Shown: piece after piece, positions 26,283-60,532 of the stretch
Numbering within the stretch: the first letter of the stretch is position 1
How the letters are laid out: every line of letters starts with the position of its first letter
Translations under genes and position numbers: made by a program
Assembly (NCBI GenBank): GCA_003577165.1
Contig: QEUM01000001.1
Span: 186,001 to 250,000 of the forward strand
Source of the DNA: Armatimonadota bacterium
Lineage (GTDB): Bacteria > Armatimonadota > Fimbriimonadia > Fimbriimonadales > ATM1
Direction of reading: 5' to 3'
DNA: 64,000 bases
Notes under the pieces: model-generated
What the model saw: the letters and a program-made list of their open reading frames with translations, nothing else
Told to the model about the DNA's origin: nothing
Database searches by the model: none

Positions 26283-27560
26283 TTAGCGCTTCATGCTGAG
26301 CAAGTCCTGAAGCATCTCGTCAACGGTCGTAACCACGCGAGTGTTCGCCTGGAATCCGCGCTGCGTGACGATCAGGTTCGTGAACTCGCTTCCGAGGTCC
26401 ACGTTGGATTGCTCAAGGAAGCCTGCATTGATGCTTCCGCGACCCGCCGATCTCGGAGGACCCACAACGGGCACACCCGAGTTGTCGGTGTTGCGCCAGA
26501 GGTTGTTGCCGATCCTCTCGAGACCTGCCGGGTTCGGGAAGATCGACATCGCGATCAGTCCGAGAGAACGAGTCAGACCGTTCGTAAACAGGCCTGTAAT
26601 CGTTCCGTCGACGCCGATGCTGAAGTTTGCGAGCGAGCCAGGCGGGAATCCGTTCTGGTCCGTCATCTGCACCTGCGTTTCCGTGTTCAGCTGGCTGATC
26701 GCGCTGAATCCAAGGTCAACGACGAATGGCGGCGCGCCGTTTGCCGACGGCACGGTCACCTGCTGCACTGCAGTCGCGTTGATCAAATTGCCCTGAGCGT
26801 CGAAGTAGAGCGGCTCGCCCGAAGTCGAGGAGTCGCCGACTGGCGTCGACCCTTCGACGGCGGACCAGTCCCAACTCGCAACGGCGCCGGGAGGCGGCGT
26901 GCCGACGGGCGGTACCTGGTGATTCGTGAACGTGATGTTGATGTCGTGAGAACCGCCCAAAGAGTCGTAGACTCGGAAGGTGCTCTCCCAACTTTCCGCC
27001 GGGCTCGCAGCAGAATACAGGTTGCCCGCGAAGTTCGCCGCGGTCGTGACTTGAACCGCCTTCAGCGAGCCAAGCGGAATCGTCAGAGTGCTGGATGGAC
27101 TGATCGGCACGTTCGTGTCGATATTCCCGAACGAGTCTGCACTCCAACCGAGGAGGCGTTCACCCGTCGTCCTCTGCACGAGAGATCCGCTTGCGTCCAG
27201 GTCGAAGCCTCCGTCTCTGGTGTAGGCGACTCGTTCGCCGTTGGCGACCAGGAAGTAGCCATTGCCCTGCACGGCCAGGTCGGTCGTCTTGTTGGTGGAT
27301 TGAAGCGATCCCTGATCGAGATTCGTGTCCGTTCCACCGACGATGACGCCGAGGCCGTACTGGACGGGGTTCGTTCCGCCGAGTCCGTTGTTCTGCGGTC
27401 GCGTCGCGCCACGAATAGTCTGCGCGATCATCTCTTGAAAGGTCACTCGGCTTCCCTTGTACGCCGTCGTATTGACGTTGGCAAGGTTGTTGCCGATGAC
27501 GTTCATGCGCGTTTGCTGCGCTTTGATGCTGGCGACGCCAGCGAGCAATGCTTGAAGCAT
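26283..27560 (-). CDS. flgE: Flagellar hook protein FlgE
   Basis: FlgE polymerises into the universal joint between basal body and filament. The 425-residue protein has the N-terminal rod/hook signature (NVIGNNLANVNTTAYKGSRVTFQEM), TDLAVQGNGYFLV in the FlgE D1 region, and the C-terminal heptad helix (QSNVDLGSEFTNLIVTQRGFQANTRVVTTVDEML). The ATG at 27560 has AGGAGG ten bases upstream. It is the last gene of the fliK-flgD-TIGR02530-flgE cluster and ends at a strong terminator. Variable surface domains lie between about residues 150 and 330. Confidence 0.95.
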   Translation of the reverse strand: MLQALLAGVASIKAQQTRMNVIGNNLANVNTTAYKGSRVTFQEMIAQTIRGATRPQNNGLGGTNPVQYGLGVIVGGTDTNLDQGSLQSTNKTTDLAVQGNGYFLVANGERVAYTRDGGFDLDASGSLVQRTTGERLLGWSADSFGNIDTNVPISPSSTLTIPLGSLKAVQVTTAANFAGNLYSAASPAESWESTFRVYDSLGGSHDINITFTNHQVPPVGTPPPGAVASWDWSAVEGSTPVGDSSTSGEPLYFDAQGNLINATAVQQVTVPSANGAPPFVVDLGFSAISQLNTETQVQMTDQNGFPPGSLANFSIGVDGTITGLFTNGLTRSLGLIAMSIFPNPAGLERIGNNLWRNTDNSGVPVVGPPRSAGRGSINAGFLEQSNVDLGSEFTNLIVTQRGFQANTRVVTTVDEMLQDLLSMKR

Positions 27561-27655
27561 TTTCTCTTGTTCCTCCTGTGCTATTTGGCGCGGCCGTTCG
27601 ACGCATTCAGCGTCGGACGATCAGGAGGCTTCCCCACCTCTCGATGGGGTCCAGC

Positions 27656-28030
27656 CTATACGAATACCGCGCTGTCAACGTTCGTGAACACGTTTTCCTT
27701 GAGTTGGTCTTTGGCGACTGCTGTGATCACCGTGCGGTTGCGCACGCTGACGATGAGCGCCACTTCGTCGAGCATGACGAGAGACTCCTTGCTGCCCTTC
27801 CCTGCGGCCCGTTCCATGCCGGCGGCAACCCTTTCCCAATCCTGCTGGGAAAGTTCGATGCCTCGGCTGTTGAGCCGCGTTTCGGCGTGTCCGGAAAGCC
27901 GCAGGTTTAGGCGGCTCTGAAGGACTTCGCGAAACGACGCCGCGTCAGGCGCGCTGCGCTGCTGCGGCGCTTGCGTCGCCGGCGCATTGATGAGCGCTTG
28001 GACTTTCGGATTGAGGATCTTCTCAGTCAT
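27656..28030 (-). CDS. Flagellar operon protein, TIGR02530 family
   Basis: The 124-residue protein matches the small family encoded between flgD and flgE in many Gram-positive and deep-branching bacteria. The diagnostic part is residues 45-124: SGHAETRLNSRGIELSQ, GSKESLVMLDEVALIVSV, RNRTVITAV and ENVFTNVDSAV. Its role in hook assembly is not well established. The ATG has GAGGTGA upstream and the gene lies 23 bases after flgD. The first 40 residues are Ala/Gln/Pro-rich and probably disordered. Confidence 0.88.
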   Translation of the reverse strand: MTEKILNPKVQALINAPATQAPQQRSAPDAASFREVLQSRLNLRLSGHAETRLNSRGIELSQQDWERVAAGMERAAGKGSKESLVMLDEVALIVSVRNRTVITAVAKDQLKENVFTNVDSAVFV

Positions 28031-28053
28031 TCATTCACCTCGTTGAACTCAGG

Positions 28054-28446
28054 TCAGCCTGTGATCTTCATCACGCTTTCGAGGGGATGCCGGACTCCGG
28101 CGATCACCACAAAAACACGCTGACCGTTCGATTCGACCGCTTCGACTCGCCCCTGGGCGAACCCATTGCCGATGCCCGCGTCGTCAGTGCGAACCATGAC
28201 TTGCTTTCCAAGCAGGTTTGCCGCCTGAGACGCCTGCATGCTCACCGCAAGGCGATCGACTCCTTGCACCAGTCCGAGCTGCGCCATCTGCGCGAAGAAG
28301 TCTCGATCCGACATCGGCTCGAGAGGATTCTGCGTCGCCAATTGCGCAGTCAACAGTTGAAGAAACGCTGCCTGGTCCAGGAAGTTGCTCTTCGCGGGCG
28401 GCGGATCCGGGAGGACGTATTCGGTGTTGATTCCAGATACTTGCAT
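28054..28446 (-). CDS. flgD: Flagellar hook assembly protein FlgD (short form)
   Basis: FlgD caps the growing hook. The 130-residue product contains the conserved N-terminal region: FLDQAAFLQLLTAQLATQNPLEPMSDRDFFAQMAQL. It then has a short domain with GKQVMVRTDD and VEAVESNGQRVFVVI. It lacks the FlgD-Ig/Tudor C-terminal domains of enteric FlgD (over 200 residues), as is common in Bacillus-like versions. A strong TAGGAGG precedes the ATG at 28446, nine bases after fliK. Confidence 0.9.
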   Translation of the reverse strand: MQVSGINTEYVLPDPPPAKSNFLDQAAFLQLLTAQLATQNPLEPMSDRDFFAQMAQLGLVQGVDRLAVSMQASQAANLLGKQVMVRTDDAGIGNGFAQGRVEAVESNGQRVFVVIAGVRHPLESVMKITG

Positions 28447-28455
28447 TAGGGCCTC

Positions 28456-30156
28456 CTACACGCTCACGTCCAATGCCGATGTCGAGAGTCGGAGAAACGG
28501 ACGAGACGAGACTCGGATCGCTCCTTCCACGGACTCGGGCTGAAGCAGCCGCCTCAACTCCGTCCACTGTCGAGATTCTGCGTCCCTCTTGCCGCCTGCA
28601 TCAGAGCCGACGAACATCTGTCCGAGTTCCAGCCCTCGATTCTGAAGGGCCTGCACGAGTTGGTCGCGGTTCGACTCAAGCAACGCGCGCACGTCCGAAG
28701 ACGATGCAACGATGTGAGTCTCGACGCGGTGTCCGGTTGTCTTGACCGTCAGCTCGATCTTGCCGAGTTCGGGTGGATCGAGCCGCAGAGTCACGGAGCG
28801 AGGTTTCGCAGAGTCGATGAGTTCCTGAACGCGCTCGATCACCCGCTCGATGACCGCGGATGAGACAGCAGGCTCAATCTTGGCTGGCTGCGTTCTCACC
28901 GAGACTTCGGGCCGGTGTGTGTGCGTCGTCGGAACGGGAGCAACCGAATTCTCCTCTTCCTCGCGTCCTTCGATTGCCTTCGGTGACGGGATCTTCTCTT
29001 CGATCGCGCGAGCCGTCAAGATCACCTTGACTTTGTCGTTGATGGGCGCGAGATCGATCCCAATCGCTGAGACGACGGGCTGATGATTCGAGGAGTGATT
29101 CGACGTCCGGATCTGGTCAAGCAGCGCCTTCGCCTTGGCGGCGAAGTCCTGCAGCGACTCGGGAATCCCGACTGTGTCATCGCCCGCGGCAATGGACTTC
29201 AGGATCGAGGCCACCTTCTCGACGGGCACCTGGACGCTCTCGACGAGCGACTTCAGGCTCTTTCGAATGTCTGCGATGAGGGTGGCTGACGTACGATCCG
29301 GCGTGTCCGCATGAGCCCGCGTCGTCGGGCCAAGGTGGTCCGACGCGACGTTCACAGGCAGGGCCTGAGTGCGGGGAAGCCTGTCTTCCACGCGATCGGG
29401 TCTCGCCGAGGTTTCGGGCGCTCCCTTCTCCGTCTCGATGAAGGTGTCGCCGGTGCCGTTCGCGACGGCCGTTCTGGGGATCATCCGGTCAATGACCGGC
29501 TTCTCCGTCCCTTCGGCGTCTGCTCCGCCCCGGGAGGCGGGTAGGCCAGAAGGATCAGACTTAGCCTGGATACCACCCCCGGCTCGGGCTGAGGCCCGAG
29601 GGAGGCTGATCTCGTCTTGAGACAGGTCCTTCGACTCCGTGCCGAGAACAGGCTTGCCCCAGGCGGACAGCGTCGGGGCTGGCCCTAAGATCGTGTCACC
29701 TGAGTCGGTCGCGGTCTCGCCTTCCCCTGAGACCAGGCGGTCGTTCGCGGCCCGGGTGACCGGACCTCCGCTGGCCCAGTCGCGTGCCGTTGAGGCCTGG
29801 GGTTGGCGCGTGGTGCGAGTCGAGGCGGCCGGAACAGGGGGAAACGCGGCGAGCCGCGGCCCTCCCGGGTTCTTGTCCACGCCGTCCAGCTTGTTCGAAC
29901 CTGATGTCGTCTGCGGTTCGTCGGCTTCGGCGTAGTTCTCTATGTTTGTCGATGGCTCCGGTGGCGGGCTTACTGGCGTTGGTGTGGGCACGGCTGCGGC
30001 CAAGACGATTGCCTCGTCGACAACAGCGTCCACCTCCTTCCCGTCTCCCAGTTCGAGATCCGGGAACGCCGGTCCGCCATCTTTGCCCTTGGGCAGTTCC
30101 TTCGCCGGATCAGCCGTCGCCGCCGGCACAAAGGCTGCCGCAAAGTCAATTTGCAT
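28456..30156 (-). CDS. fliK: Flagellar hook-length control protein FliK
   Basis: FliK measures the hook and switches the export gate to filament proteins. The 566-residue protein has a long Pro/Ala/Thr-rich, probably disordered N-terminal ruler (1-420). The conserved C-terminal Flg_hook domain follows (about 430-520), with VTLRLDPPELGKIELTV, VETHIVASSSDVRALL and LVQALQNRGLELGQMFVGSD. AAGGAGGT lies nine bases before the ATG at 30156. It is the first gene of the hook cluster. The low-complexity ruler is expected to vary between relatives. Confidence 0.9.
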   Translation of the reverse strand: MQIDFAAAFVPAATADPAKELPKGKDGGPAFPDLELGDGKEVDAVVDEAIVLAAAVPTPTPVSPPPEPSTNIENYAEADEPQTTSGSNKLDGVDKNPGGPRLAAFPPVPAASTRTTRQPQASTARDWASGGPVTRAANDRLVSGEGETATDSGDTILGPAPTLSAWGKPVLGTESKDLSQDEISLPRASARAGGGIQAKSDPSGLPASRGGADAEGTEKPVIDRMIPRTAVANGTGDTFIETEKGAPETSARPDRVEDRLPRTQALPVNVASDHLGPTTRAHADTPDRTSATLIADIRKSLKSLVESVQVPVEKVASILKSIAAGDDTVGIPESLQDFAAKAKALLDQIRTSNHSSNHQPVVSAIGIDLAPINDKVKVILTARAIEEKIPSPKAIEGREEEENSVAPVPTTHTHRPEVSVRTQPAKIEPAVSSAVIERVIERVQELIDSAKPRSVTLRLDPPELGKIELTVKTTGHRVETHIVASSSDVRALLESNRDQLVQALQNRGLELGQMFVGSDAGGKRDAESRQWTELRRLLQPESVEGAIRVSSRPFLRLSTSALDVSV

Positions 30157-35022: not shown

Positions 35023-35697
35023 ATGGCAGCGCTACTGCGTGGAGTCTGGCTGGTGCTCGTTTCAAAGCGCCTCTGGCCGTACGTGTTCATCCCCCTCCTC
35101 CTCGCTGCACTGTTATACGCGGGCATCTTTTTCGGTGGGCTCTATTGGCTGATTCCGCTTCTTAAGGACAGGATCGCGGGCGATGGGCTCATCGGCACGG
35201 TGGTCGGCTGGCTCGGGAACCTGCTCTGGATTGCAGTATGCGCCTTGTTCGCGAATCTCACCTTTGTCGGCGTTATTGGCTTGTTCAGTGCGCTGTTCTG
35301 GGATTCTCTCTCGGCGAAGGTCGAGGAAATCGTGTTCGGCAGCGTGCCGAGGTCCTCTGCTGGCTGCGGGCTGCTTCTATGGGATGCTGTGGCCAGGATC
35401 GGGATTAGCGCGATGCTGTTCGTAGTTGGTCTCGTTCTGAGCCCCTTCTGCGGGATCAGCATTGCGGTGACGACGGGCCTGCTCTGCCTGCTCGACTTTA
35501 GTTCCTGCGCGTACCTTCGCCGAGGCATCTCCATCGGCGGCCAGATGAATCAAGTGTTCAGATCGCGAGCGGCGCCCGGATATATCGCTGCCTCGGCGTT
35601 CGCCTCAACGATTCCGTTCCTGTTCGTCTTCCTTATCCCGGGAATGGTCGCAGGCGGCACCATTCTGTGTCGCCAGCAACTCGAGACTAACCGTTGA
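35023..35697 (+). CDS. EI24 domain (CysZ-like) integral membrane protein
   Basis: The 224-residue protein has about five or six hydrophobic helices. It opens with the family pattern LRGVWLVLVSKRLWPYVFIPLLLAALLY. FANLTFVGVIGLF, SALFWDSLSAKVEEIV and GLVLSPFCGISIAVTTGLLCLLDF follow. The EI24/CysZ family includes the sulfate permease CysZ, but transport substrate cannot be inferred for distant members. The start is taken at ATG 35023; a TTG at 35005 is possible. Its 3' end overlaps secA by 11 bases convergently. Confidence 0.72.
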   Translation: MAALLRGVWLVLVSKRLWPYVFIPLLLAALLYAGIFFGGLYWLIPLLKDRIAGDGLIGTVVGWLGNLLWIAVCALFANLTFVGVIGLFSALFWDSLSAKVEEIVFGSVPRSSAGCGLLLWDAVARIGISAMLFVVGLVLSPFCGISIAVTTGLLCLLDFSSCAYLRRGISIGGQMNQVFRSRAAPGYIAASAFASTIPFLFVFLIPGMVAGGTILCRQQLETNR

Positions 35698-38600
35698 CTT
35701 CGCGGTAGTGACAGTGCTTGAACTTCTTACCGCTCCCGCAGGGGCAGGGGTCGTTGCGCTTGACGCTCTTCCAGTCGATTTCGCCGTTTCCAGATCCTGC
35801 GACAGGTGTCGTTTTTGCGCCGTCGATTCTCTGCATCTGCGGTTTCGGTTCGGCCTGCCGCTGCACGGTGGTTCGGTATATCCCCATCACGGTCAGGTCC
35901 CGAACGCCGCGCATCGTGTCCTCGAAAATCTGATGCGACTCTTTGCGGAAGGCAATCAGCGGATCGACCTGCCCGTAGCCTCGGAGTCCGATTCCCTCTC
36001 GAAGTCTTTCGACTAACTGGAGGTGCTCAGTCCACTTGCGCGTAATCGCCTGCAGAAGCACGAAGCGTTCGACGAGCCGGAAGTCATCGCCCAGTTCCTC
36101 CTCTCGACGCCGATAGGCTTCGAGAGCCCAGTTCGTCGCGATCTCCGTGACGTCGGCCGTGTCCTTGTGGCCCTCGAAATCGCCCGGGCCGCCGTAATCC
36201 ACTGCAGGAAAGATGCCAAGCAGATCGCGATAGAGCGCATGGAAGTCCCAAGTCGTGCGATCGATGCCGTCGGGAGCGTACTTCATCACGACTTCCTCGA
36301 TGGCCTCCCGAATGTACTCCTCGATGAGCGGACGCGGATCCTTTCCTAACAGATACTCGCGTCGCATGCTGTAAACGTGCTCTCTCTGAGCGTTCAGCAC
36401 GTCGTCGTATTCGAGGACGTTCTTCCGGTACTCGAACAAATGCGTCTCGATTCGCTTTTGAGTTTTCTCGATCATCCCGCTCAAAAACTTTGCGTGCACT
36501 TCTTCGAAGTCCGGCCACGCTTTCAGGAGCGGGTTCTCCATCATCTTCGGGTTAAAGATTTTCCACAGTTGGTCTTCGAGCGACACGAAGTAGCGGCTCT
36601 CGCCGGGATCACCTTGACGACCGGAGCGGCCTCGCAACTGATTGTCAATTCGTCGGCTCTCGTGACGCTCAGTGCCGAGGATGTAGAGGCCGCCGAGTTT
36701 GCGAACCTCTTCGGCCGCTTCTTGGCGCTCCTGCTCATCGAGAGGCAGGGGCGGAGCGGCCCTTTCCAAGCCCCCCCGGCGGTGAGTCGCAAATGTCTCC
36801 GCGGAGAACTCGTCGTCGGAGCCTTGCGAGAACTGAATCTCGTCCGACTTCACGCGCCCTCCGAGCAGGATGTCCACGCCGCGGCCCGCCATGTTCGTCG
36901 CGATCGTGACTGCGCCCTTACGTCCCGCCTCCGCGATGATGAGCGCTTCCTTCTCGTGGAACTTCGCGTTCAAGACGTTGTGCGGAATTCCGTGTCGCAA
37001 TGCCTCATCGAGATACTGTCGATTCTCTTTCGAAACTTCGAAGTAGGTGAGGAACCAATTTGCCAGGTCATCAGCGAGCGGATCGTGCGGCAGGTTGAGA
37101 CTGCGCGCTGCGTCCTGAAGCGTCCGCATCTTGGCGTCGTCGAGCGACGTCGAGATCTGCTTGTACGCCTCGTGCTTGTCCTTCTTTGACGACCCCTTCT
37201 CGCTCTCGACCGCGACCTTGATCCGCTCGGCCAGCAGCATTTTCTGGAGCATGTCCGCCTGCAACCGACGGCTGATCCGCTCCGACATCTCGATGGATCT
37301 CGTTCCCACCAGCACGGGCTGCTGCTTGGTATAGAGGCGAAGGATTTCTCTTGAGATCGCCCGAAACTTCGCTTCTTCCGTTTTGAAGACGACATCCGGA
37401 TGATCCGCTCGGATCATCGTTCGGTGAGGCGGAACGGACACGACTTCGAGACCGTAGATTTTTCGGAATTCGTCTTCTTCCGTCTTCGCCGTGCCCGTCA
37501 TGCCGGCGAGTTTCTCGTAAAGACGGAACAGATTCTGGAATGTGATGACGGCCACCGTCTGACTTTCACGCTGGACTGTCACCCCTTCCTTCGCCTCGAG
37601 AGCCTGATGGATGCCATCACTCAGTCTGCGGCCGAACATCAAGCGGCCCGTGTTCTCGTCGACCAGGATGACTTGGCCGTCTTTCACGACGTATTCGACG
37701 TCACGCTCGAAGAGCCCCTGGGCTTTGATCGATGCGTTGATGTAGTGCATCAGGTCCGGGTGATTGGCGAGATTGTCAATCCCGAGAAGTTCTTCGACCC
37801 GGTCGTAGCCGGCTTCGGTCAGGTTTGCAGAGTGGTTCTTCTTGTCCACCGTGTAGTGGTCACCCGGCTGCTCCTCCTTTCCTCCCTTCTGAAGCCGTGC
37901 GACCACGTCGTTGATCTTCTTGTAGATGGTAACGTCTTCCGAAGAGGGTCCGCTGATGATGTGCGGGGTTCGCGCCTCGTCGACCAAGATGCTGTCGACT
38001 TCGTCGACGATCGCATAGTGAAGTTCTCGCATCGAGAGGTCTTCGACGCTCATCGCCATGTTGTCGCGAAGGTAATCGAATCCAAACTCGTGGTTGGTGC
38101 CGTAGACGACATCGCACTCGTAGGCTTCGCGTCGTGAACAGTCAACCAAGTTCGAATAGCGCGGATCTCGATGCTGTGCGCCGGGCACATATCGATAACT
38201 TCCACCCAACTCGTCCGTCTCAGGCGACTGTCCTTGGATGACGCCAACAGACAGCCCTAGCATATGATAGATGGGGCCCATCCACACCGCGTCGCGCCGC
38301 GCGAGATAATCGTTGACCGTGACGAGGTGAACGCCTCGGCCTGTGAGAGCGTTCAAATACAGCGGCATGGTCGCGACGAGCGTCTTTCCTTCGCCCGTCT
38401 TCATCTCTGCAATCTTGCCTTCGTGGAGTACGGCGGCGCCCAGTACCTGCACGTCGAAGTGGCGCATGTGCAGAGTGCGCTTAGAAGCCTCCCTGACGAG
38501 GGCAAACGCTTCGGGCATCAAATCATCCAGCGGGACGCCACTCTTTGCGCGCGCCTTCAGTTCCTCGCTCGCCTTGGCGATCTCGTCATGCGACATCGCC

Positions 38601-38707
38601 TCGAATTTCGATTCGAGGGCGTTTACTTGTTCAACGACCGGCAGGAGGCGCTTTGTCTCATCTTCGCTCTTGTCGAAGATGCGCCGGAAAAATGTGTCAA
38701 TCTTCAT
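35687..38707 (-). CDS. secA: Preprotein translocase ATPase SecA (long form)
   Basis: SecA pushes unfolded preproteins through SecYEG. The 1006-residue protein is complete: Walker A in MKTGEGKTLVA, the DEVDSILVDEARTPH motif, preprotein cross-linking domain, NBD2 with GRGVDILLGG and QLRGRSGRQGDPG, helical scaffold and a C-terminal zinc tail CPCGSGKKFKHCH. It is longer than the usual 840-900 residues. About 90 extra residues lie between residues 482 and 571, between SERISRRL and GIPHNVLNAK. The VAR segment after ILLGG (about 60 residues) is also long. The N-terminus starts MKIDTFFRRIFDKSED. No other sec gene is adjacent. Confidence 0.96.
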   Translation of the reverse strand: MKIDTFFRRIFDKSEDETKRLLPVVEQVNALESKFEAMSHDEIAKASEELKARAKSGVPLDDLMPEAFALVREASKRTLHMRHFDVQVLGAAVLHEGKIAEMKTGEGKTLVATMPLYLNALTGRGVHLVTVNDYLARRDAVWMGPIYHMLGLSVGVIQGQSPETDELGGSYRYVPGAQHRDPRYSNLVDCSRREAYECDVVYGTNHEFGFDYLRDNMAMSVEDLSMRELHYAIVDEVDSILVDEARTPHIISGPSSEDVTIYKKINDVVARLQKGGKEEQPGDHYTVDKKNHSANLTEAGYDRVEELLGIDNLANHPDLMHYINASIKAQGLFERDVEYVVKDGQVILVDENTGRLMFGRRLSDGIHQALEAKEGVTVQRESQTVAVITFQNLFRLYEKLAGMTGTAKTEEDEFRKIYGLEVVSVPPHRTMIRADHPDVVFKTEEAKFRAISREILRLYTKQQPVLVGTRSIEMSERISRRLQADMLQKMLLAERIKVAVESEKGSSKKDKHEAYKQISTSLDDAKMRTLQDAARSLNLPHDPLADDLANWFLTYFEVSKENRQYLDEALRHGIPHNVLNAKFHEKEALIIAEAGRKGAVTIATNMAGRGVDILLGGRVKSDEIQFSQGSDDEFSAETFATHRRGGLERAAPPLPLDEQERQEAAEEVRKLGGLYILGTERHESRRIDNQLRGRSGRQGDPGESRYFVSLEDQLWKIFNPKMMENPLLKAWPDFEEVHAKFLSGMIEKTQKRIETHLFEYRKNVLEYDDVLNAQREHVYSMRREYLLGKDPRPLIEEYIREAIEEVVMKYAPDGIDRTTWDFHALYRDLLGIFPAVDYGGPGDFEGHKDTADVTEIATNWALEAYRRREEELGDDFRLVERFVLLQAITRKWTEHLQLVERLREGIGLRGYGQVDPLIAFRKESHQIFEDTMRGVRDLTVMGIYRTTVQRQAEPKPQMQRIDGAKTTPVAGSGNGEIDWKSVKRNDPCPCGSGKKFKHCHYREVNG

Positions 38708-42361: not shown

Positions 42362-44845
42362 TTAGTTCGGCTGGAGTTGCTGCTCTTCGACCGCTTCGCC
42401 GGACGGCGGGACGTCTGCTTTGCGAAACAACACCTGCCCGGTTTCGTCTAGCTCGACGCGAATTTTGTCGCCCTCGCTAAACCTCCCGAGCAGGATTTCC
42501 TCCGAGAGCGGATCCTCGATGAACCGCTGAACTGCTCTTCGGAGAGGGCGCGCACCCATGTCCGGTTGGTAACCTTCCCGGGCGAGCATTTCCTTGACGT
42601 TGTCAGCCAATTCGATTGAGATCCGGTTTCGCGCCGCCTGTTCGTTCACTCTCTTGACCTGGAGATCGACGATCTTCAGAATCTCTTCTTTCGAGAGGTG
42701 GTGGAAGACGATGACTTCGTCTACACGGTTAAGGAACTCCGGCCTGAAGAGTTTCTTCATTTCGGAGAGCATCTTGTTCTTCATCGCCTCGTAGGCTTTT
42801 GGATCGTTCGGATCGAACCGAGACTCCCTGAAACCGATTCCGCGCTCCTCTTCGATCGGTTTGACGCCGACGTTCGACGTCATGATGATCACGGTGTTGC
42901 GGAAGTCGACGACGCGGCCCTGGCTGTCCGTCAATCGGCCGTCTTCCAAGACTTGAAGCAAGATGTTGAAAACTTCCGGATGCGCCTTCTCGATTTCGTC
43001 GAGCAGCACCACGCAGTACGGATTGCGGCGAACCGCTTCTGTGAGTTGTCCGCCCTCTTCGTGGCCCACATATCCCGGAGGGGCGCCGATTAGGCGGCTC
43101 ACCGCGAACCGTTCCATGTACTCGGACATGTCGATCCGAACCATGCTGTTCTCGTTCTCGAACATGTAGTTCGCGACGGCTCGCGCCATTTCGGTCTTTC
43201 CGACGCCGGTCGGGCCGAGGAAGATGAAACTGCCCATCGGCCGCTTGGGATCCTTGAGACCGCTTCGGGAGCGGCGCACTGCGCGAGAGATCGCGGTCAC
43301 AGCGTCGTGCTGACCTATGATCCGCTCGTGGAGGACATCCTCCATCCGGAGCAGTTTCTGGCTTTCTGTCTCGACGAGGCGAGCCACTGGAATGCCAGTC
43401 CAGGTTTGGACGATGTGCGCAATGTCGTCTTCGCCGACGATGAGGTCGCCCTTGTGCTCGGCGTTCCAAGCCGTCTCGCGCTCCTTGAGCGACAAGTCGA
43501 GTTGAGCGATCTCCTGTTCAAGTTTTTCGATGCGACCGGTGAGGTCCTGGCGCCTCTGCGCCTTCTCTAATTCTTCGGTTAGGCCCTGAAGGTGCTGCCT
43601 GTCTTGACGGATGTCGAGCGGTGGCAGCGTCTGCATGAGCCTCGCGCGGCTTGCCGCCTCGTCGATCAGGTCGATCGCTTTGTCCGGCAGAGTTCGGTCG
43701 CTGATGTACCTTTGCGAGAGTTGAACGGCCGCTTCGATGGCGTCGTCACGAATCTCGACTTTATGATGCGCTTCATAGCGCTCGCGAAGGCCCTTGAGGA
43801 TAGAGATTGCCTCCTCCTCAGTCGGCTCGCGGACGATCACGGGCTGGAATCGGCGTTCGAGCGCAGCATCCCGCTCGATGTACTTGCGGAATTCATCCTG
43901 CGTCGTGGCGCCGATGCATTGGAGTTCACCTCTTGCGAGGGCCGGTTTCATGATGTTTGAGGCATCAATCGCGCCTTCTGCGGCGCCCGCGCCCACGAGA
44001 GTGTGCAACTCATCGACAAAGAGGATGACCTCGCCATCCGCCTTGCGAACTTCCTCCATCACGCGCTTCATTCGCTCTTCGAACTCGCCCCGGTATTTCG
44101 TTCCGGCAACGAGTGCGGCAAGGTCCAGAGCGACGATGCGCTTGTCCTTGATTTGCTCAGGGACATCGCCCGCAACGATCCGTTGCGCCAGGCCTTCTGC
44201 GATTGCTGTTTTGCCTACGCCGGGCTCGCCAATCAAGCAAGGGTTGTTCTTGGTGCGCCGGCTTAGGATTTGCATGACGCGTTCGATTTCGTTGTGACGC
44301 CCGACCACGGGGTCCAACTTTCCTTGCCGCGCCATTTCGGTCAGGTCACGACCGAATTCGTCAAGTGTTTGCGTTTGCGACCGACTCGATCGGCCCGCAC
44401 GCGGAGGCGCTTCGTTGTCTTGCAGCGCCATGACTTCCCTTCGCGCGCGTTCGAGGTCTACGTCGAGCTTTGCGAGAACGCGACCTGCAAGACCGTCTCC
44501 CTCGCGGATCAGTCCGAGAAGCAGGTGCTCCGTTCCGATGTAGTTGTTATTGAGAGTTCGAGCTTCGTCATAAGCCAAGTCGATGACCCGCTTTGCCCGA
44601 GGCGTAAGCGTCATGTCTTGGACTTGCTTTTGATCGCCGCGCGGTAGTTGCTTTTCGACTTCGGAACGAATCTTGCTGAGGCTCACTCCGAGTTTTTCGA
44701 GAACTCGCGCGGCAACGCTATCCGGCTCGCGAACGAGACCGAGCAAGAGGTGCTCGGTGCTTACATAACCCTCACCGAACTTCTGCGCCTCTTCTTGTGC
44801 GTAGAAGACAACCTTCCTAGCTCGCTCGGTAAACCTTTGCCACAT
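42362..44845 (-). CDS. clpC: ATP-dependent Clp protease ATP-binding subunit ClpC
   Basis: ClpC is an AAA+ unfoldase that feeds ClpP, often using arginine-phosphorylated substrates marked by McsB. The 827 residues include two Clp-N repeats (1-150), AAA-1 with Walker [10 protein letters not shown], Walker B and [12 protein letters not shown], a UvrB/C-like M-domain (about 410-480), and AAA-2 with GPTGVGKTE and [11 protein letters not shown]. The D2-small domain ends in a short polar tail. The ClpP-contact loop is in the expected region. It starts 59 bases downstream of the McsB-like gene. No ctsR or mcsA gene is visible next to them. Confidence 0.96.
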
Positions 44846-55238: not shown

Positions 55239-58166
55239 ATGGCGAACTGGCCGAAGGCTCAGGTCTCCTTGCTCGAAGCGACGCCTGGTTTCGCCACCCT
55301 GAAGGCCGTCGTCTCGGAATTCCTAAAGCATGACTCCGCTGCGATCGTCTCGACCTCCGCTCCAACGCTTGCGCTTGCGAGAGACATCGTCCTTGAGAGC
55401 TCAGAGGACGGGGGGGCCTCACCCGAAGTCGTGGGCGAGATTCGGTCGCTTGGCGATCTCGTCGGAATGTTCGCGAACTGCGCGGACTTGCCGATCCGCA
55501 GAGTAGTGGGTCGCGACCATCAGGCAGCAATTGCCGCTCTCATATCGGCAGACCTCGTAGAGGGCAGCCCCTTTGCGAAGGCGAAATCCCTTCGCGGGTT
55601 TCACCTGGCGTTCGCCGATGCCGCAAGCGAACTTCGGTATGCGTGCGTCGAACCCAACGTGCTGAAAGGACTCGAAGGCAAACCGTCGCATTTCGCCGAC
55701 ATGGTCTCCAAGTTTGAGTCTTCCTTGGACCACAACCGACTTACGACATTGTCTCTGGCGATGATGCGCGTGATCGAATCACCGCCCGTTCGACCAAGCG
55801 GCCTCGGAGTCGTCTATTGGGTGGGAGAAAGACAGTGGCCGGAGCTGTTCCTCCGATTCGCTTCGTGGATGGCTGCCTCGGGGATCGCAGTCGTGCTCGT
55901 GTGCGAGAAGCATGGGGAAGACGCCGAGTTCTTTCCCGAGACCGTGAAATTGCGAGAACAATTCTCATCGTCTGCTCGCGCTGGACACTCCGACCCAGTT
56001 AGAGCGACCCAGTCGGCCCGGCCAACACAGATCAGGATTGCGCGTACTGCAGACGTGACGATGGAAACCGAGTGGGCTCTCCGCCATGCGGTGTATGCGA
56101 ATCGAAATGGCACTCCGTGGAGTCGAATCTGCATCTTGTGCCGGGCCCTCGATGAATACGGTCCGCTCCTGGAAGTTGCAGCGACTCGATTCGGCGTCGA
56201 CCTCGAGATCTCGAGGCCTGAGCCGCTCCTCGCAAACGGTTTTGCGAGGCACCTCATGGCTGTGCTGGACTGCGTCGCCGACCCCTTTGCAAGAGGTGTA
56301 GCGGACCTCTTCCAGTCTCCCTACTGGCGACTCAGCAGAGAGTCCAGGGCGGGTGCATCGCAGGCTGCGAACGCGCTGCGAAGGTCTTCCAACTTCTGGC
56401 ACGCGGCGTCGGAATCACCGCCCACGGAACTGCCTTTGTCGTTCGGCAACGTGCTTCGGTGGCGCAAGTCGAATCAGGACCGTGCGCTCACCCTGTCCGG
56501 CTGGGTTCATGAATTGAGCCACTTGCTGGCCGAGGTCGACTGGCTCGACATGGGATCGGACGGCGACTCTTTCGCTGCAACTCGCGACGCCGCTGCGCGG
56601 CATGAACTCGTGAACTCACTTTTCGTGCACGCGCTCAAAATGCCGCCTGGCACGAAACTGAGTTGCGTGGAATTCGTTCGCGCCGCGCGCGAAGCCTGGA
56701 GAGATGCAACTTACCGCGTACACCGTTTCGGGGACCTGCGCGTCGTCTCCGACGTGCATCAGGTCGGAAACTGCGAATACCTAATCGCTCTTGGAATGGT
56801 TGACGGCCGATTCCCTCACAGGCGCGTTGAGAATCCGATCCTCCTCGACGAAGCGCGCCAGAGAATCCCCGATCAGCCCCTAAGATCGAGTTACGAAGTT
56901 GCAGAAGAAGAGAGGCGGGAGTTTTATCGGCTGCTGTGCGCAGCCGACGCCATCGACTTTTTCTGGCCGGCACAGGTCGGTGACCGGATCAACATCAGGT
57001 CGGTCTTCCTCGAAGAGATGGTGTCGAGCGATCCGGACGTACAGCAGATCGAATACCCTGTGGAACGGAGGTTTCCAGATACGACCCACGCCGTCACGCA
57101 AGCGGAAGCCATCGCGGCTGCCGAGTGGAGGAAGTTCTCCGGCAAGGACCCGCTCAAACTGGATGAGGAACTCGAAGCCGCTGCCGCTGCGCTTAAATCG
57201 TTCACCCAGAACTCTTCCGATACGGCGATACGATCTCCCAATGTGCGCAACTTACTGGGCGAGTTGCCCCCCCGGCTCACACTGTCGCACCTCCAATTGC
57301 TGCGCTACTGTCCGTTCCAATACTTCGCGCGAGCGAAGCTAGGCCTGAGCGGCGAAGATGCAGCCTGGACAACAGACTTGATCTACAAGGCGATCCGCAA
57401 CGTGGACCTCACATCGGCCGAATCGGCGGAAGATCTCGAACGGCGACTCCTCGGCGCCCTCGATCTCATCCTTGAGCAACATGGCGCGCAGTTCGACGAC
57501 CACACGTTGGAGGTCATTCGCGTTTCGGCTCCCAAACTGCTGCGTAGTTTCGCAATCCGAGAGATGAACGCGCGGCATCTCTGGCAACTGCAAGCGGTTG
57601 GACAAAACCTCTCTTTGCATGACTTCGCCGCCCAGGGCGGAGCAAACTTCCGAACGGCAATACCAATGGGCGACCGACAGGTTCCTGTGGACGAACGAAT
57701 CGACGTCCTCTACAGCCGCGACGGCTCCCTCGTGCCGTTAAGATTTGGATATTTCTCAGGGCCGGATCCAGACGAACGATTTCGATTTAGCGCGGGCACT
57801 CTACTTCTGCTCTTGCCGCGCGACCAGGCAGACGCAGCAGCCTGCTTCGACAACCCTCAGTTTCAGCGCCGAAAGCTACTGATCCGACCGAATCGCGGTT
57901 CCGCAAAGAGAGTCGAGCAGCACCACGACAAGGGTCTGTACGCAGACACAGGATCGGGAGAAGACGAACATCACGGTCAAGAGACATTTCGAAGGTTCGC
58001 GGAGAGATACGCGAACGAAGTTAAGAACCTGATTCGAGTTGCGATGACAGGCGATCCCGTCCCGACACCGGGAGAACACTGTACAAGGTGCAACTTGGGG
58101 CCGTTTTGTCGCCGGTCAGAGTTTTCCAACCCTTACATTCTCGCGCTGGACTCCTCACCGCCATGA
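55239..58166 (+). CDS. AddB-like (RecBCD/AddAB accessory) protein with degenerate nuclease motif
   Basis: The 975-residue protein resembles the AddB side of helicase-nuclease complexes. The N-terminal half is helicase-like in layout but has no Walker A. The C-terminal third opens with LTLSHLQLLRYCPFQYF, the AddB nuclease-domain start, and closes with C948-x2-C951-x5-C957. With Cys691 these give the four Fe-S cysteines. Between them, the expected G-x-x-x-H is TDLIYKAI, and the catalytic D-Y-K is VPLRFGYF (832-839), so the PD-(D/E)XK triad is lost. ATG 55239 has AAGGGTG upstream. The next gene, a UvrD-like helicase, overlaps by four bases (ATGA), so they form one complex. Nuclease loss is my inference. 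Confidence 0.72.
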   Translation: MANWPKAQVSLLEATPGFATLKAVVSEFLKHDSAAIVSTSAPTLALARDIVLESSEDGGASPEVVGEIRSLGDLVGMFANCADLPIRRVVGRDHQAAIAALISADLVEGSPFAKAKSLRGFHLAFADAASELRYACVEPNVLKGLEGKPSHFADMVSKFESSLDHNRLTTLSLAMMRVIESPPVRPSGLGVVYWVGERQWPELFLRFASWMAASGIAVVLVCEKHGEDAEFFPETVKLREQFSSSARAGHSDPVRATQSARPTQIRIARTADVTMETEWALRHAVYANRNGTPWSRICILCRALDEYGPLLEVAATRFGVDLEISRPEPLLANGFARHLMAVLDCVADPFARGVADLFQSPYWRLSRESRAGASQAANALRRSSNFWHAASESPPTELPLSFGNVLRWRKSNQDRALTLSGWVHELSHLLAEVDWLDMGSDGDSFAATRDAAARHELVNSLFVHALKMPPGTKLSCVEFVRAAREAWRDATYRVHRFGDLRVVSDVHQVGNCEYLIALGMVDGRFPHRRVENPILLDEARQRIPDQPLRSSYEVAEEERREFYRLLCAADAIDFFWPAQVGDRINIRSVFLEEMVSSDPDVQQIEYPVERRFPDTTHAVTQAEAIAAAEWRKFSGKDPLKLDEELEAAAAALKSFTQNSSDTAIRSPNVRNLLGELPPRLTLSHLQLLRYCPFQYFARAKLGLSGEDAAWTTDLIYKAIRNVDLTSAESAEDLERRLLGALDLILEQHGAQFDDHTLEVIRVSAPKLLRSFAIREMNARHLWQLQAVGQNLSLHDFAAQGGANFRTAIPMGDRQVPVDERIDVLYSRDGSLVPLRFGYFSGPDPDERFRFSAGTLLLLLPRDQADAAACFDNPQFQRRKLLIRPNRGSAKRVEQHHDKGLYADTGSGEDEHHGQETFRRFAERYANEVKNLIRVAMTGDPVPTPGEHCTRCNLGPFCRRSEFSNPYILALDSSPP

Positions 58167-60532
58167 TCTCGTTCGTTCCCGAACAAGAGGAGGCCATTCG
58201 CGCTGACTCCGAAACGCTCGTCATCCGAGCAGGCGCCGGGGCAGGAAAGACGCACGTTCTGGTAAGCCGGTATCTTCGTTACGTCTGTGAGGAATCCGGC
58301 ACGCCGGAAGAGATTCTCGCAATCACGTTCACCCGAAAGGCTGCCGCAGAAATGCGGCTTCGAATTGCAGAAGAACTGAGGAAGAGAGATCTCGAGCGGG
58401 AAGCGCGGCTCGCCCTCTCGGGTCCCATCACGACCGTGCATGCCTACTGCGAGCGGCTGCTGCGTGAATATCCATTCGAGGCCGGCATTGACCCAGATTT
58501 CGACGTTCTCTCGGAGGATTCCGCGCCTGATCTCTTCCGCAGGGCTTCCGAGCGCGCCATTCACGAATTGACGGCCGAAGACGAATTCGTTCGAGCAGCG
58601 GTGGAGCAGTACGGAGACCGGAATCCACTCTCCGGCGACGATCTCGCCGGCAAGATCGCTCGAATCGTCACGGAATTTCGCACCGCCGGAAGAACTCCCG
58701 AAAGGCTGGAGGAACTCACTGAATCCCCCGCTGCCGTCGAACGATCCTGGGAGTACAGGATTCGCGATCTTCTTACCGAGTTGCTGGGCGAGCCGCCGCC
58801 CGATGGCTGGCAACTCGATCTCGATGCCGTGCTGAGTCTCCTTGCCAGCAAAAAGATTCGCAAGCCGGCGTGGGTGTCGAAGGCGTTGCCTCTCGGTACC
58901 GATCCGACAATGACCGCTGTAGCCGTCGGCCTGGCGCGACTCGGCCTCCTCGCTTGGCGGATCGGACTTGCAGAAATGCGGGCCGGCAATTTCTTAGACT
59001 TTTCGGAACTCGAGTTGCGCGCATGCGAACTACTTGAAACACATCCGCATCTCCTGGAAGGCAAATACCGGTGGCTCCTCGTGGACGAGGCCCAGGATCT
59101 TAATCCACTTCAATACAGACTGATTCGGGCGACGCCCACGCGGAGCCTCGTGCTCGTCGGCGACCCTCAGCAGGCGATCTACGGCTTCCGTGGCGCGCGC
59201 CGCGAGCTCTTTATTCGTCAATTCGATGCCGCTCTCTGCAAGACCCTTTACACAAACTGGCGCAACCCGCGACCGGTGCTTCATGTCGTGGAGTCGATCT
59301 TCAAAAGCATCTGGAACGACGAGTTCGTGCAAATGAGACACCCCCATGCGCGCGAAGTAGATCCGTTCGGCGAAGAAGTCTCGAACGAGTCCGACCCTGG
59401 GGCCGAAAGGTCGGAACCCGTCGAGATGTGGCACCTCGACGATCGAAGCGTCGGGATTCAGATAGCAACGGGAGTTCATGAGTTGATCGCAGAGGGCATT
59501 CCTCCACGCGACATCACGATCCTGTTGCGCAGTCACGCCGACGTGGAGCCCATTGCGATGGGGCTGGCGTCACTTTCGATTCCGTACTCCGAGTCAGCGA
59601 CCGGCCGGCACTATTTCTCGCGCCAGGAAGTCCTGGACGTTGGGAGCGTGCTCAAGGCGCTCTGGGATCCCAAGAGCGACCTGCATCTCCTCGCAACGCT
59701 GAGATCTCCCATCGTCGGCGTGAGCGCTGACGGCGCATTCGCTTTGGCGCTGCACGCGAAGTCGGGCGGTATCTCGGCGTACGAGGCTCTCGGAACGGAC
59801 GAGCTGACTTTCGACAAGAGCGATCTGCGTGCGCTGGACGCATTCTCATCTTGGTTTCATCGGCTGTCTCGACGAATCGAGTGGCTGCCTGCGTGGCAGA
59901 TTCTCTCCGAGTTGGCCGAGGCGACGTCGCTCGATGCCCGGCTTGCGACTCTTCCGCACGGAGATCAACTCATCGCAAACGTTCGTCAGATGTTCTTGTA
60001 CGCTTGTGATAGGCCGGAGATGAACGGCCTCGAGTTCGCGGTTTGGCTCGAGAACAAGCGCAGGCTCCGAACTCAGAAGGGAGATGCCGCGGTCCTTTCG
60101 GACTCGGCCGATGCGGTTCGCATCACGACGATTCATCAAGCGAAGGGGCTCGAATGGCCCGTCGTCGTCCTCTACGCCAAGTCGAGCGCAGGCTCTCGTT
60201 GGGTGGATCTCTTGATCGACGGGGACGGAGGGGTTGTGGTTCCGTGCACTCAAAGCACGAAGGTGTCCTGCTACCACGCGGTCGCAGCGCAAAGAGAGGA
60301 GCACGAGCGGGCCGAAGATCGAAGGCTCCTGTACGTCGGGATGACGCGAGCAAAGCGTAGGCTGTGCATCGCGCAACCTCCTTCAGCGAAAGCGAAGCGG
60401 AACTCCTGGGTGGACCTCGTCAATCGGATCCGTCCACGCAGCGGACCCACACCTATGATCCGTGTGCGCCGCTTTGATCGGGAGCCGACGGAGCGAGATG
60501 GCTCGACGGTCTCAACGCATACCACGAAATAG
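58163..60532 (+). CDS. UvrD/AddA-like superfamily 1 DNA helicase without nuclease domain
   Basis: This is a 3'-5' SF1 helicase motor. The 789 residues show motif Q (FVPEQEEAIRAD), Walker A (RAGAGAGKTHVL), ITFTRKAAAEM (motif Ia), LLVDEAQDLN (II), VGDPQQAIYGFRGA (III), YTNWRNP (IV), TTIHQAKGLEWPVV (V) and RRLLYVGMTRAKRRL (VI). It ends about 60 residues after motif VI, whereas AddA and RecB continue with a nuclease domain. The start ATG overlaps the AddB-like stop. Its last 80 bases overlap the MFS gene convergently. Likely role: recombination-type DNA unwinding with the AddB-like partner. Confidence 0.9.
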   Translation: MISFVPEQEEAIRADSETLVIRAGAGAGKTHVLVSRYLRYVCEESGTPEEILAITFTRKAAAEMRLRIAEELRKRDLEREARLALSGPITTVHAYCERLLREYPFEAGIDPDFDVLSEDSAPDLFRRASERAIHELTAEDEFVRAAVEQYGDRNPLSGDDLAGKIARIVTEFRTAGRTPERLEELTESPAAVERSWEYRIRDLLTELLGEPPPDGWQLDLDAVLSLLASKKIRKPAWVSKALPLGTDPTMTAVAVGLARLGLLAWRIGLAEMRAGNFLDFSELELRACELLETHPHLLEGKYRWLLVDEAQDLNPLQYRLIRATPTRSLVLVGDPQQAIYGFRGARRELFIRQFDAALCKTLYTNWRNPRPVLHVVESIFKSIWNDEFVQMRHPHAREVDPFGEEVSNESDPGAERSEPVEMWHLDDRSVGIQIATGVHELIAEGIPPRDITILLRSHADVEPIAMGLASLSIPYSESATGRHYFSRQEVLDVGSVLKALWDPKSDLHLLATLRSPIVGVSADGAFALALHAKSGGISAYEALGTDELTFDKSDLRALDAFSSWFHRLSRRIEWLPAWQILSELAEATSLDARLATLPHGDQLIANVRQMFLYACDRPEMNGLEFAVWLENKRRLRTQKGDAAVLSDSADAVRITTIHQAKGLEWPVVVLYAKSSAGSRWVDLLIDGDGGVVVPCTQSTKVSCYHAVAAQREEHERAEDRRLLYVGMTRAKRRLCIAQPPSAKAKRNSWVDLVNRIRPRSGPTPMIRVRRFDREPTERDGSTVSTHTTK

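Follow-up and report, generated by a model that had tools for sequence, protein, structure and literature searches.

An AddAB-type helicase pair without recognizable nuclease sites in a lineage of Armatimonadota

The addB-addA gene pair

The window, i.e. the whole stretch of 64,000 nucleotides that was analysed (contig C18, 186001-250000), comes from a 2.75 Mb genome assembly of 23 contigs and 97% completeness. It carries two full-length open reading frames that are coupled through a shared ATGA (58163-58166), in which the addB stop codon overlaps the addA start codon:

55239..58166, + strand: addB-like gene (975 aa), apparently inactivated helicase-like domains and an apparently inactivated nuclease domain, Fe-S cysteines retained
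58163..60532, + strand: addA-like gene (789 aa), SF1A helicase without a C-terminal nuclease domain

Genes for flagellar proteins (FlgE-like and FliK-like), SecA and a ClpB/ClpC-type ATPase (26283-30156, 35687-38707 and 42362-44845), also present in the window, are ordinary. There is no RecD-like gene beside the addB-addA pair.

The initial annotation had interpreted the two genes as an AddAB-like pair and proposed a structural comparison with Bacillus AddB, and fold models of both subunits agree with this interpretation. The AlphaFold model of the AddB-like protein, based on a 38-row alignment, is a confident one (pLDDT 83.8); its best PDB match in a Foldseek search is Bacillus AddB (3u4q_B, E = 2.2e-27), and the top five matches are all Bacillus AddB chains, followed by AdnA and then by RecC. 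The AddA model (pLDDT 85.4) best matches Bacillus AddA (4cej_A, E = 5.9e-38), with a TM score of 0.76 normalised to query length. A phmmer search with AddB against PDB sequences gave no match, so that its relationship is visible only by profile and fold; judged by its predicted fold, the product of 55239-58166 is an AddB-type subunit. In AddA, Pfam detects the N- and C-terminal UvrD domains, and the nearest NCBIfam models are addA_Gpos and then RecB, both far below the equivalog cut-off. The two genes are adjacent in most genomes of the family of the source genome (f1) and of its sister family (f2). In family f43 of the same order, addA was not found directly beside addB.

Loss of the AddB nuclease site and retention of the Fe-S cysteines

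AddB relatives were gathered from the phylum and from family f1, which gave a motif table of 57 sequences. Thirty-eight of these, 32 from f2 and six from f1, represent 24 genera (18 and six, respectively); one further genome (G111) was left out of the table because its addB gene is interrupted by unknown bases near the 3' end. The residues of interest in the nuclease domain of the source AddB are as follows:

57309..57311, + strand: Cys691, first Fe-S ligand (38/38 in f1 and f2, 19/19 in the comparison set)
57372..57395, + strand: TDLIYKAI, residues 712-719, site of the lost GxxxH motif (by alignment)
57732..57755, + strand: VPLRFGYF, residues 832-839, site of the lost (I/L)-D-Y-K motif, with Asp replaced by Gly837 and Lys by Phe839 (by alignment)
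58080..58109, + strand: Cys948, Cys951 and Cys957 (C-x2-C-x5-C), the other Fe-S ligands (38/38 and 19/19)

In the alignment with Oceanobacillus AddB, which has all five catalytic residues (G, H, D, D and K), the corresponding columns of the source AddB hold A, D, D, G and F, leaving the first Asp (D822) as the sole survivor. The Pfam profile PDDEXK_1 reaches 20.2 bits, short of its cut-off of 22, and its match is confined to the N-terminal portion of the domain around Cys691. The catalytic residues are absent throughout the lineage: in all 38 AddBs of f1 and f2 the nuclease triad is gone and the pair of second acid and Lys is missing. The four cysteines are retained in every one of the 57 sequences tabulated and are among only 11 columns that are invariant in the 38 AddBs (about 20% identity). 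C691, F693, E775, C948, C951, C957 and R958 are found in 38/38 sequences, and R779 and R878 in 37/38. With identities of about 20-25%, these alignments can be relied on at the cysteines and the helicase motifs and less so elsewhere; AddB evolves rapidly (families share about 25% identity), so that column assignments outside the conserved blocks are somewhat uncertain. The two claims made for this domain at the outset, that the cysteines with their C-x2-C-x5-C spacing are intact and that the GxxxH and D-Y-K motifs have eroded to TDLIYKAI and VPLRFGYF, are thus both upheld by the alignment.

The domain might still cut by means of a relocated active site, given the conservation of E775, D871 (acidic in 35/38) and R878. 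However, D and R at positions 871 and 878 are also frequent in AddBs with a live nuclease, the 38 AddBs have neither a conserved Lys column nor a new conserved acid cluster in the nuclease domain, and most f2 members have a gap at the position of the second acid, which makes such a site very improbable.

AddA: a motor without a nuclease

The source AddA has a complete set of SF1A motifs and ends about 60 residues past motif VI, and Pfam finds no PDDEXK_1 domain in it; its description as a 789-residue helicase that lacks the nuclease domain therefore stands, in agreement with the model. No PDDEXK domain was found in 29 AddAs of f1 and f2, and the SF1A motifs are invariant. A contig scan on conserved helicase motifs returned, among the matches listed, mostly distant AddAs and PcrA, which served as controls only; in the motif search of other phyla, genuine AddAs among the matches listed almost always have a nuclease domain of 230-400 residues after motif VI.

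Outside f1 and f2, PDDEXK_1 is present in the AddAs of f23 and f32 and was not found in those of f3, f4, f6, f10 and f26; the AddAs of f43 and f44 likewise stop about 50 residues past motif VI. Because short AddAs also occur in families with a live AddB (f3, f4, f6, f43 and f44), the loss of the AddB nuclease in f1 and f2 was probably preceded by that of the AddA nuclease, which would amount to a stepwise erosion. One f3 genome with a live AddB (G191) encodes a second AddA/RecB-like helicase of 1056 aa that has a set of nuclease motifs.

Phylogenetic distribution of the loss

All five catalytic residues (GHDDK) are present in all nine outgroup AddBs, in the families f3, f4, f6, f32 and f23 of the phylum, and in f43 (nine genomes) and f44, which belong to the same order as f1 and f2. 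In a tree of the helicase-like part of AddB the state of the nuclease changes three times, once on the branch leading to f1 and f2 (support 100), whose dead AddBs form a single fully supported clade, and twice in f10. Since the triad persists in three families of the same order (f3, f43 and f44), the loss in f1 and f2 is best placed on one ancestral branch, and the finding of the same state in 38/38 sequences from 24 genera excludes chance or assembly error. In f10, two genomes (G022 and G155) have AddBs without the triad; the two changes inferred there could instead be one loss followed by a regain.

The losses are thus a property of the entire lineage, and the suggestion that the pair is a nuclease-free relative of AddAB is supported by the alignment, the Pfam scans, the confident fold model and the comparison across the lineage. 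The openly accessible literature, to which the search was confined, yielded no report of a lineage-wide AddAB without any nuclease site, and a search for Armatimonadota together with AddAB gave nothing relevant.

Walker A motif and Chi-contact residues of AddB

Alignment with Bacillus AddB points to further losses, of the Walker A motif and of a Chi-contact Phe, that were absent from the initial annotation. The residues concerned are:

55629..55631, + strand: Glu131, aligned to the latch residue E129 of Bacillus AddB
55827..55829, + strand: Glu197, in the column of the Chi-binding F210 of Bacillus AddB
56856..56858, + strand: Arg540, aligned to the latch residue R629 of Bacillus AddB

The AddB Walker A motif is missing from all 38 sequences of f1 and f2. 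It is present in f3, f4, f6, f10 and f44, in 5/9 outgroups and in 2/9 members of f43, a family whose pattern shows that Walker A can go without loss of the nuclease. The F210 column holds Phe in only 3/38 AddBs of f1 and f2 (i.e. it is lost in 35). Among AddBs with a live nuclease, Phe occupies this column in 11/11 from the order and in 14/16 of the others. In Bacillus AddB the F210A substitution impairs the response to Chi (PMC4824097). The enzyme is probably Chi-blind, as far as these aligned residues can tell, although F210 sits in a degenerate motif-II-like element, so that its loss may reflect a general relaxation of the domain and not Chi function alone. The column of the second Chi-binding residue, F68, is too variable for a verdict, and the latch Arg (R629 column) is kept in 29/38 sequences. 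The dead AddBs of f10 (G022 and G155) keep both Walker A and the F210-type Phe, which makes their nuclease losses look more recent.

Purifying selection on the dead domain

In the four close pairs of genomes with computable dS, the dN/dS ratio of the dead nuclease domain is 0.076, 0.019, 0.034 and 0.088 (dS being low in the last pair); that of AddA is 0.072, 0.018, 0.033 and 0.21. The dead domain is under purifying selection, which rejects pseudogene decay. Fast divergence and catalytic erosion might suggest that addB and addA are decaying relics, but full-length coupled frames in about 40 genomes, invariant SF1A motifs and dN/dS values well below 1 in both subunits already refute this view, which we regard as scarcely tenable. 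The low dN/dS, together with the invariant residues and the missing Lys column, argues that the domain is retained for a role other than DNA cutting.

Candidate partners elsewhere in the genome

With both cutting sites gone, strand trimming would have to come from separate enzymes. The search for another AddA or RecB with a nuclease domain, suggested in the initial annotation, came back empty: the only UvrD-type helicases (UvrD_N) of the source genome are PcrA and the AddA at 58163-60532. Of 51 good genomes of the order, all encode RecJ and 50 encode RecO; both proteins are widespread in bacteria, so that their presence is not specific. Non-homologous end joining is a poor substitute, as Ku was found in only 13/61 genomes of the order and not in the source genome. 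One additional nuclease deserves consideration:

contig C8, 78380..79183: stand-alone PD-(D/E)XK Fe-S nuclease (268 aa), one copy in the source genome

Its gene lies close to the apparent end of rpoC. It could be a separate, possibly docked, nuclease subunit of a split AddAB whose helicase part does the unwinding. The GxxxH-type, D, DYK and Cys motifs are conserved in 30 aligned copies, the protein is present in all genomes of the order that were sampled and in 8/8 genomes of f1, and in f1 and f2 it is as universal as RecJ and RecO; with 43-70% identity across these two families it is far more conserved than AddB. Its best NCBIfam match, weak and far below the cut-off, is to the AddB of alphaproteobacteria. 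However, at E <= 1e-5 the phylum sample contains 86 further genomes with this nuclease, among them relatives whose AddB nuclease is intact. Such a spread outside f1 and f2 marks it as ancestral and as predating the loss, so that we reject it as a dedicated replacement and retain it only as a rival; moreover, its gene is unlinked to addAB in the genomes seen. We consider a split AddAB of this kind conceivable but rather doubtful.

A second PDDEXK_1 match in the source genome proved to be Cas4, which adjoins Cas1 and Cas2 (contig C19, 40748-43069) and is not a repair nuclease. The source genome accordingly has CRISPR adaptation genes despite an AddAB that is apparently unable to degrade DNA. Elsewhere, spacer acquisition is linked to RecBCD, and the lineage is relevant to the question of how cells without a degrading AddAB carry out CRISPR adaptation and phage restriction.

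Proposed mechanism

We favour, with a probability of roughly 55%, a helicase-only AddAB that unwinds DNA ends and works with RecJ and RecFOR, its Chi regulation having lapsed. AddA would be the single SF1A 3'-5' motor and AddB, like RecC, a scaffold without catalytic activity that holds the duplex end and separates its strands; the Fe-S staple, required for the binding of broken DNA, would keep this scaffold together. The complex would unwind the ends of double-strand breaks without cutting; another enzyme, most probably the exonuclease RecJ, would then trim the 5' strand, with RecFOR loading RecA. As no nuclease would be left to attenuate, regulation by Chi would have lapsed. We infer complex formation, unwinding activity, the hand-off to RecJ and RecFOR and Chi-blindness from the comparisons above and from a laboratory precedent. 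In the Escherichia coli recB1080 mutant, RecBCD is nuclease-dead, keeps its helicase and does not load RecA; RecJ takes over the degradation of the 5' strand and RecFOR the loading of RecA (PMC3375238). The authors compare the pair of helicase and exonuclease with Sgs1/Dna2 and BLM/ExoI. Retention of the cysteines fits the need for the Fe-S cluster in AddAB binding of broken DNA that is reported in the title of Yeeles (2009), as cited in PMC4824097.

Of the roles initially envisaged, pure unwinding combined with a nuclease from elsewhere fits best, given the near-universal RecJ and RecO and an intact stand-alone nuclease in every f1 and f2 genome searched. A machine for RecA loading only is less probable: in RecB the nuclease domain doubles as the RecA-loading domain (PMC3375238), and AddA here has none. 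Alternatively, the pair might have become a fork-processing or anti-recombination helicase that no longer resects, leaving breaks to RecQ and RecJ, as the loss of both the nuclease and the Chi-contact residue would allow. This is unlikely, as the cysteines on which the binding of broken ends depends do not vary and the source genome offers only PcrA besides AddA, and no Ku.

Comparison with known systems

Textbook models place an integral nuclease that is attenuated at Chi at the core of AddAB and RecBCD function. The machine described here, kept for its motor and its Fe-S grip on the DNA end after losing every nuclease site, would show that evolution can separate the two functions. It leads to the prediction that the role of the Fe-S staple lies in binding ends and not in cutting. 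It also opens a test of whether Chi recognition deteriorates when the nuclease that it regulated is gone, with the live-nuclease sister families of the same order as natural controls.

The pair resembles Bacillus AddAB in the fold of both subunits, the pairing of the genes, the Fe-S cysteines, the single AddA motor and the latch Arg (in most members), but Bacillus has two nucleases where this lineage has neither, and the AddB Walker A and F210-type residue are lost here. The single-nuclease AddABs of f3, f4, f6, f43 and f44 share the short AddA without a nuclease and differ in their intact AddB nuclease. In isopod Wolbachia strains the AddA nuclease has been lost through a premature stop (PMC4224334).

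AdnA and AdnB each have nuclease and motor domains. AdnAB is similar in consisting of two UvrD-like subunits with relatives of the nuclease domain, and in the structural search AdnA ranks directly behind AddB; it is nevertheless a weaker match, and a nuclease and motor in both subunits were not found here. An AddB-like subunit that has been inactivated is already known from RecBCD, in which RecC also combines an inactivated helicase with an inactivated nuclease domain (Rigden, 2005; PMC1185551). Unlike AddA, RecB keeps its nuclease, and RecD provides a second motor; the AddB-type Fe-S cysteines are kept here, and RecC is a weaker structural match than AddB. A functional parallel is the E. coli recB1080 or recB1067 RecBCD acting with RecJ and RecFOR, a helicase-only enzyme for which other proteins provide the nuclease and load RecA (PMC3375238). 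This working mode is the one expected here, except that a point-mutant laboratory state there would be the fixed wild type of a lineage here. On balance, we lean towards a lineage-wide, selected helicase-only AddAB in which a RecC-like inactivation of AddB arose independently and was combined with an absent AddA nuclease and lost Chi regulation, so that resection would be divided between enzymes as it is in eukaryotes (BLM/Sgs1 with Dna2/Exo1).
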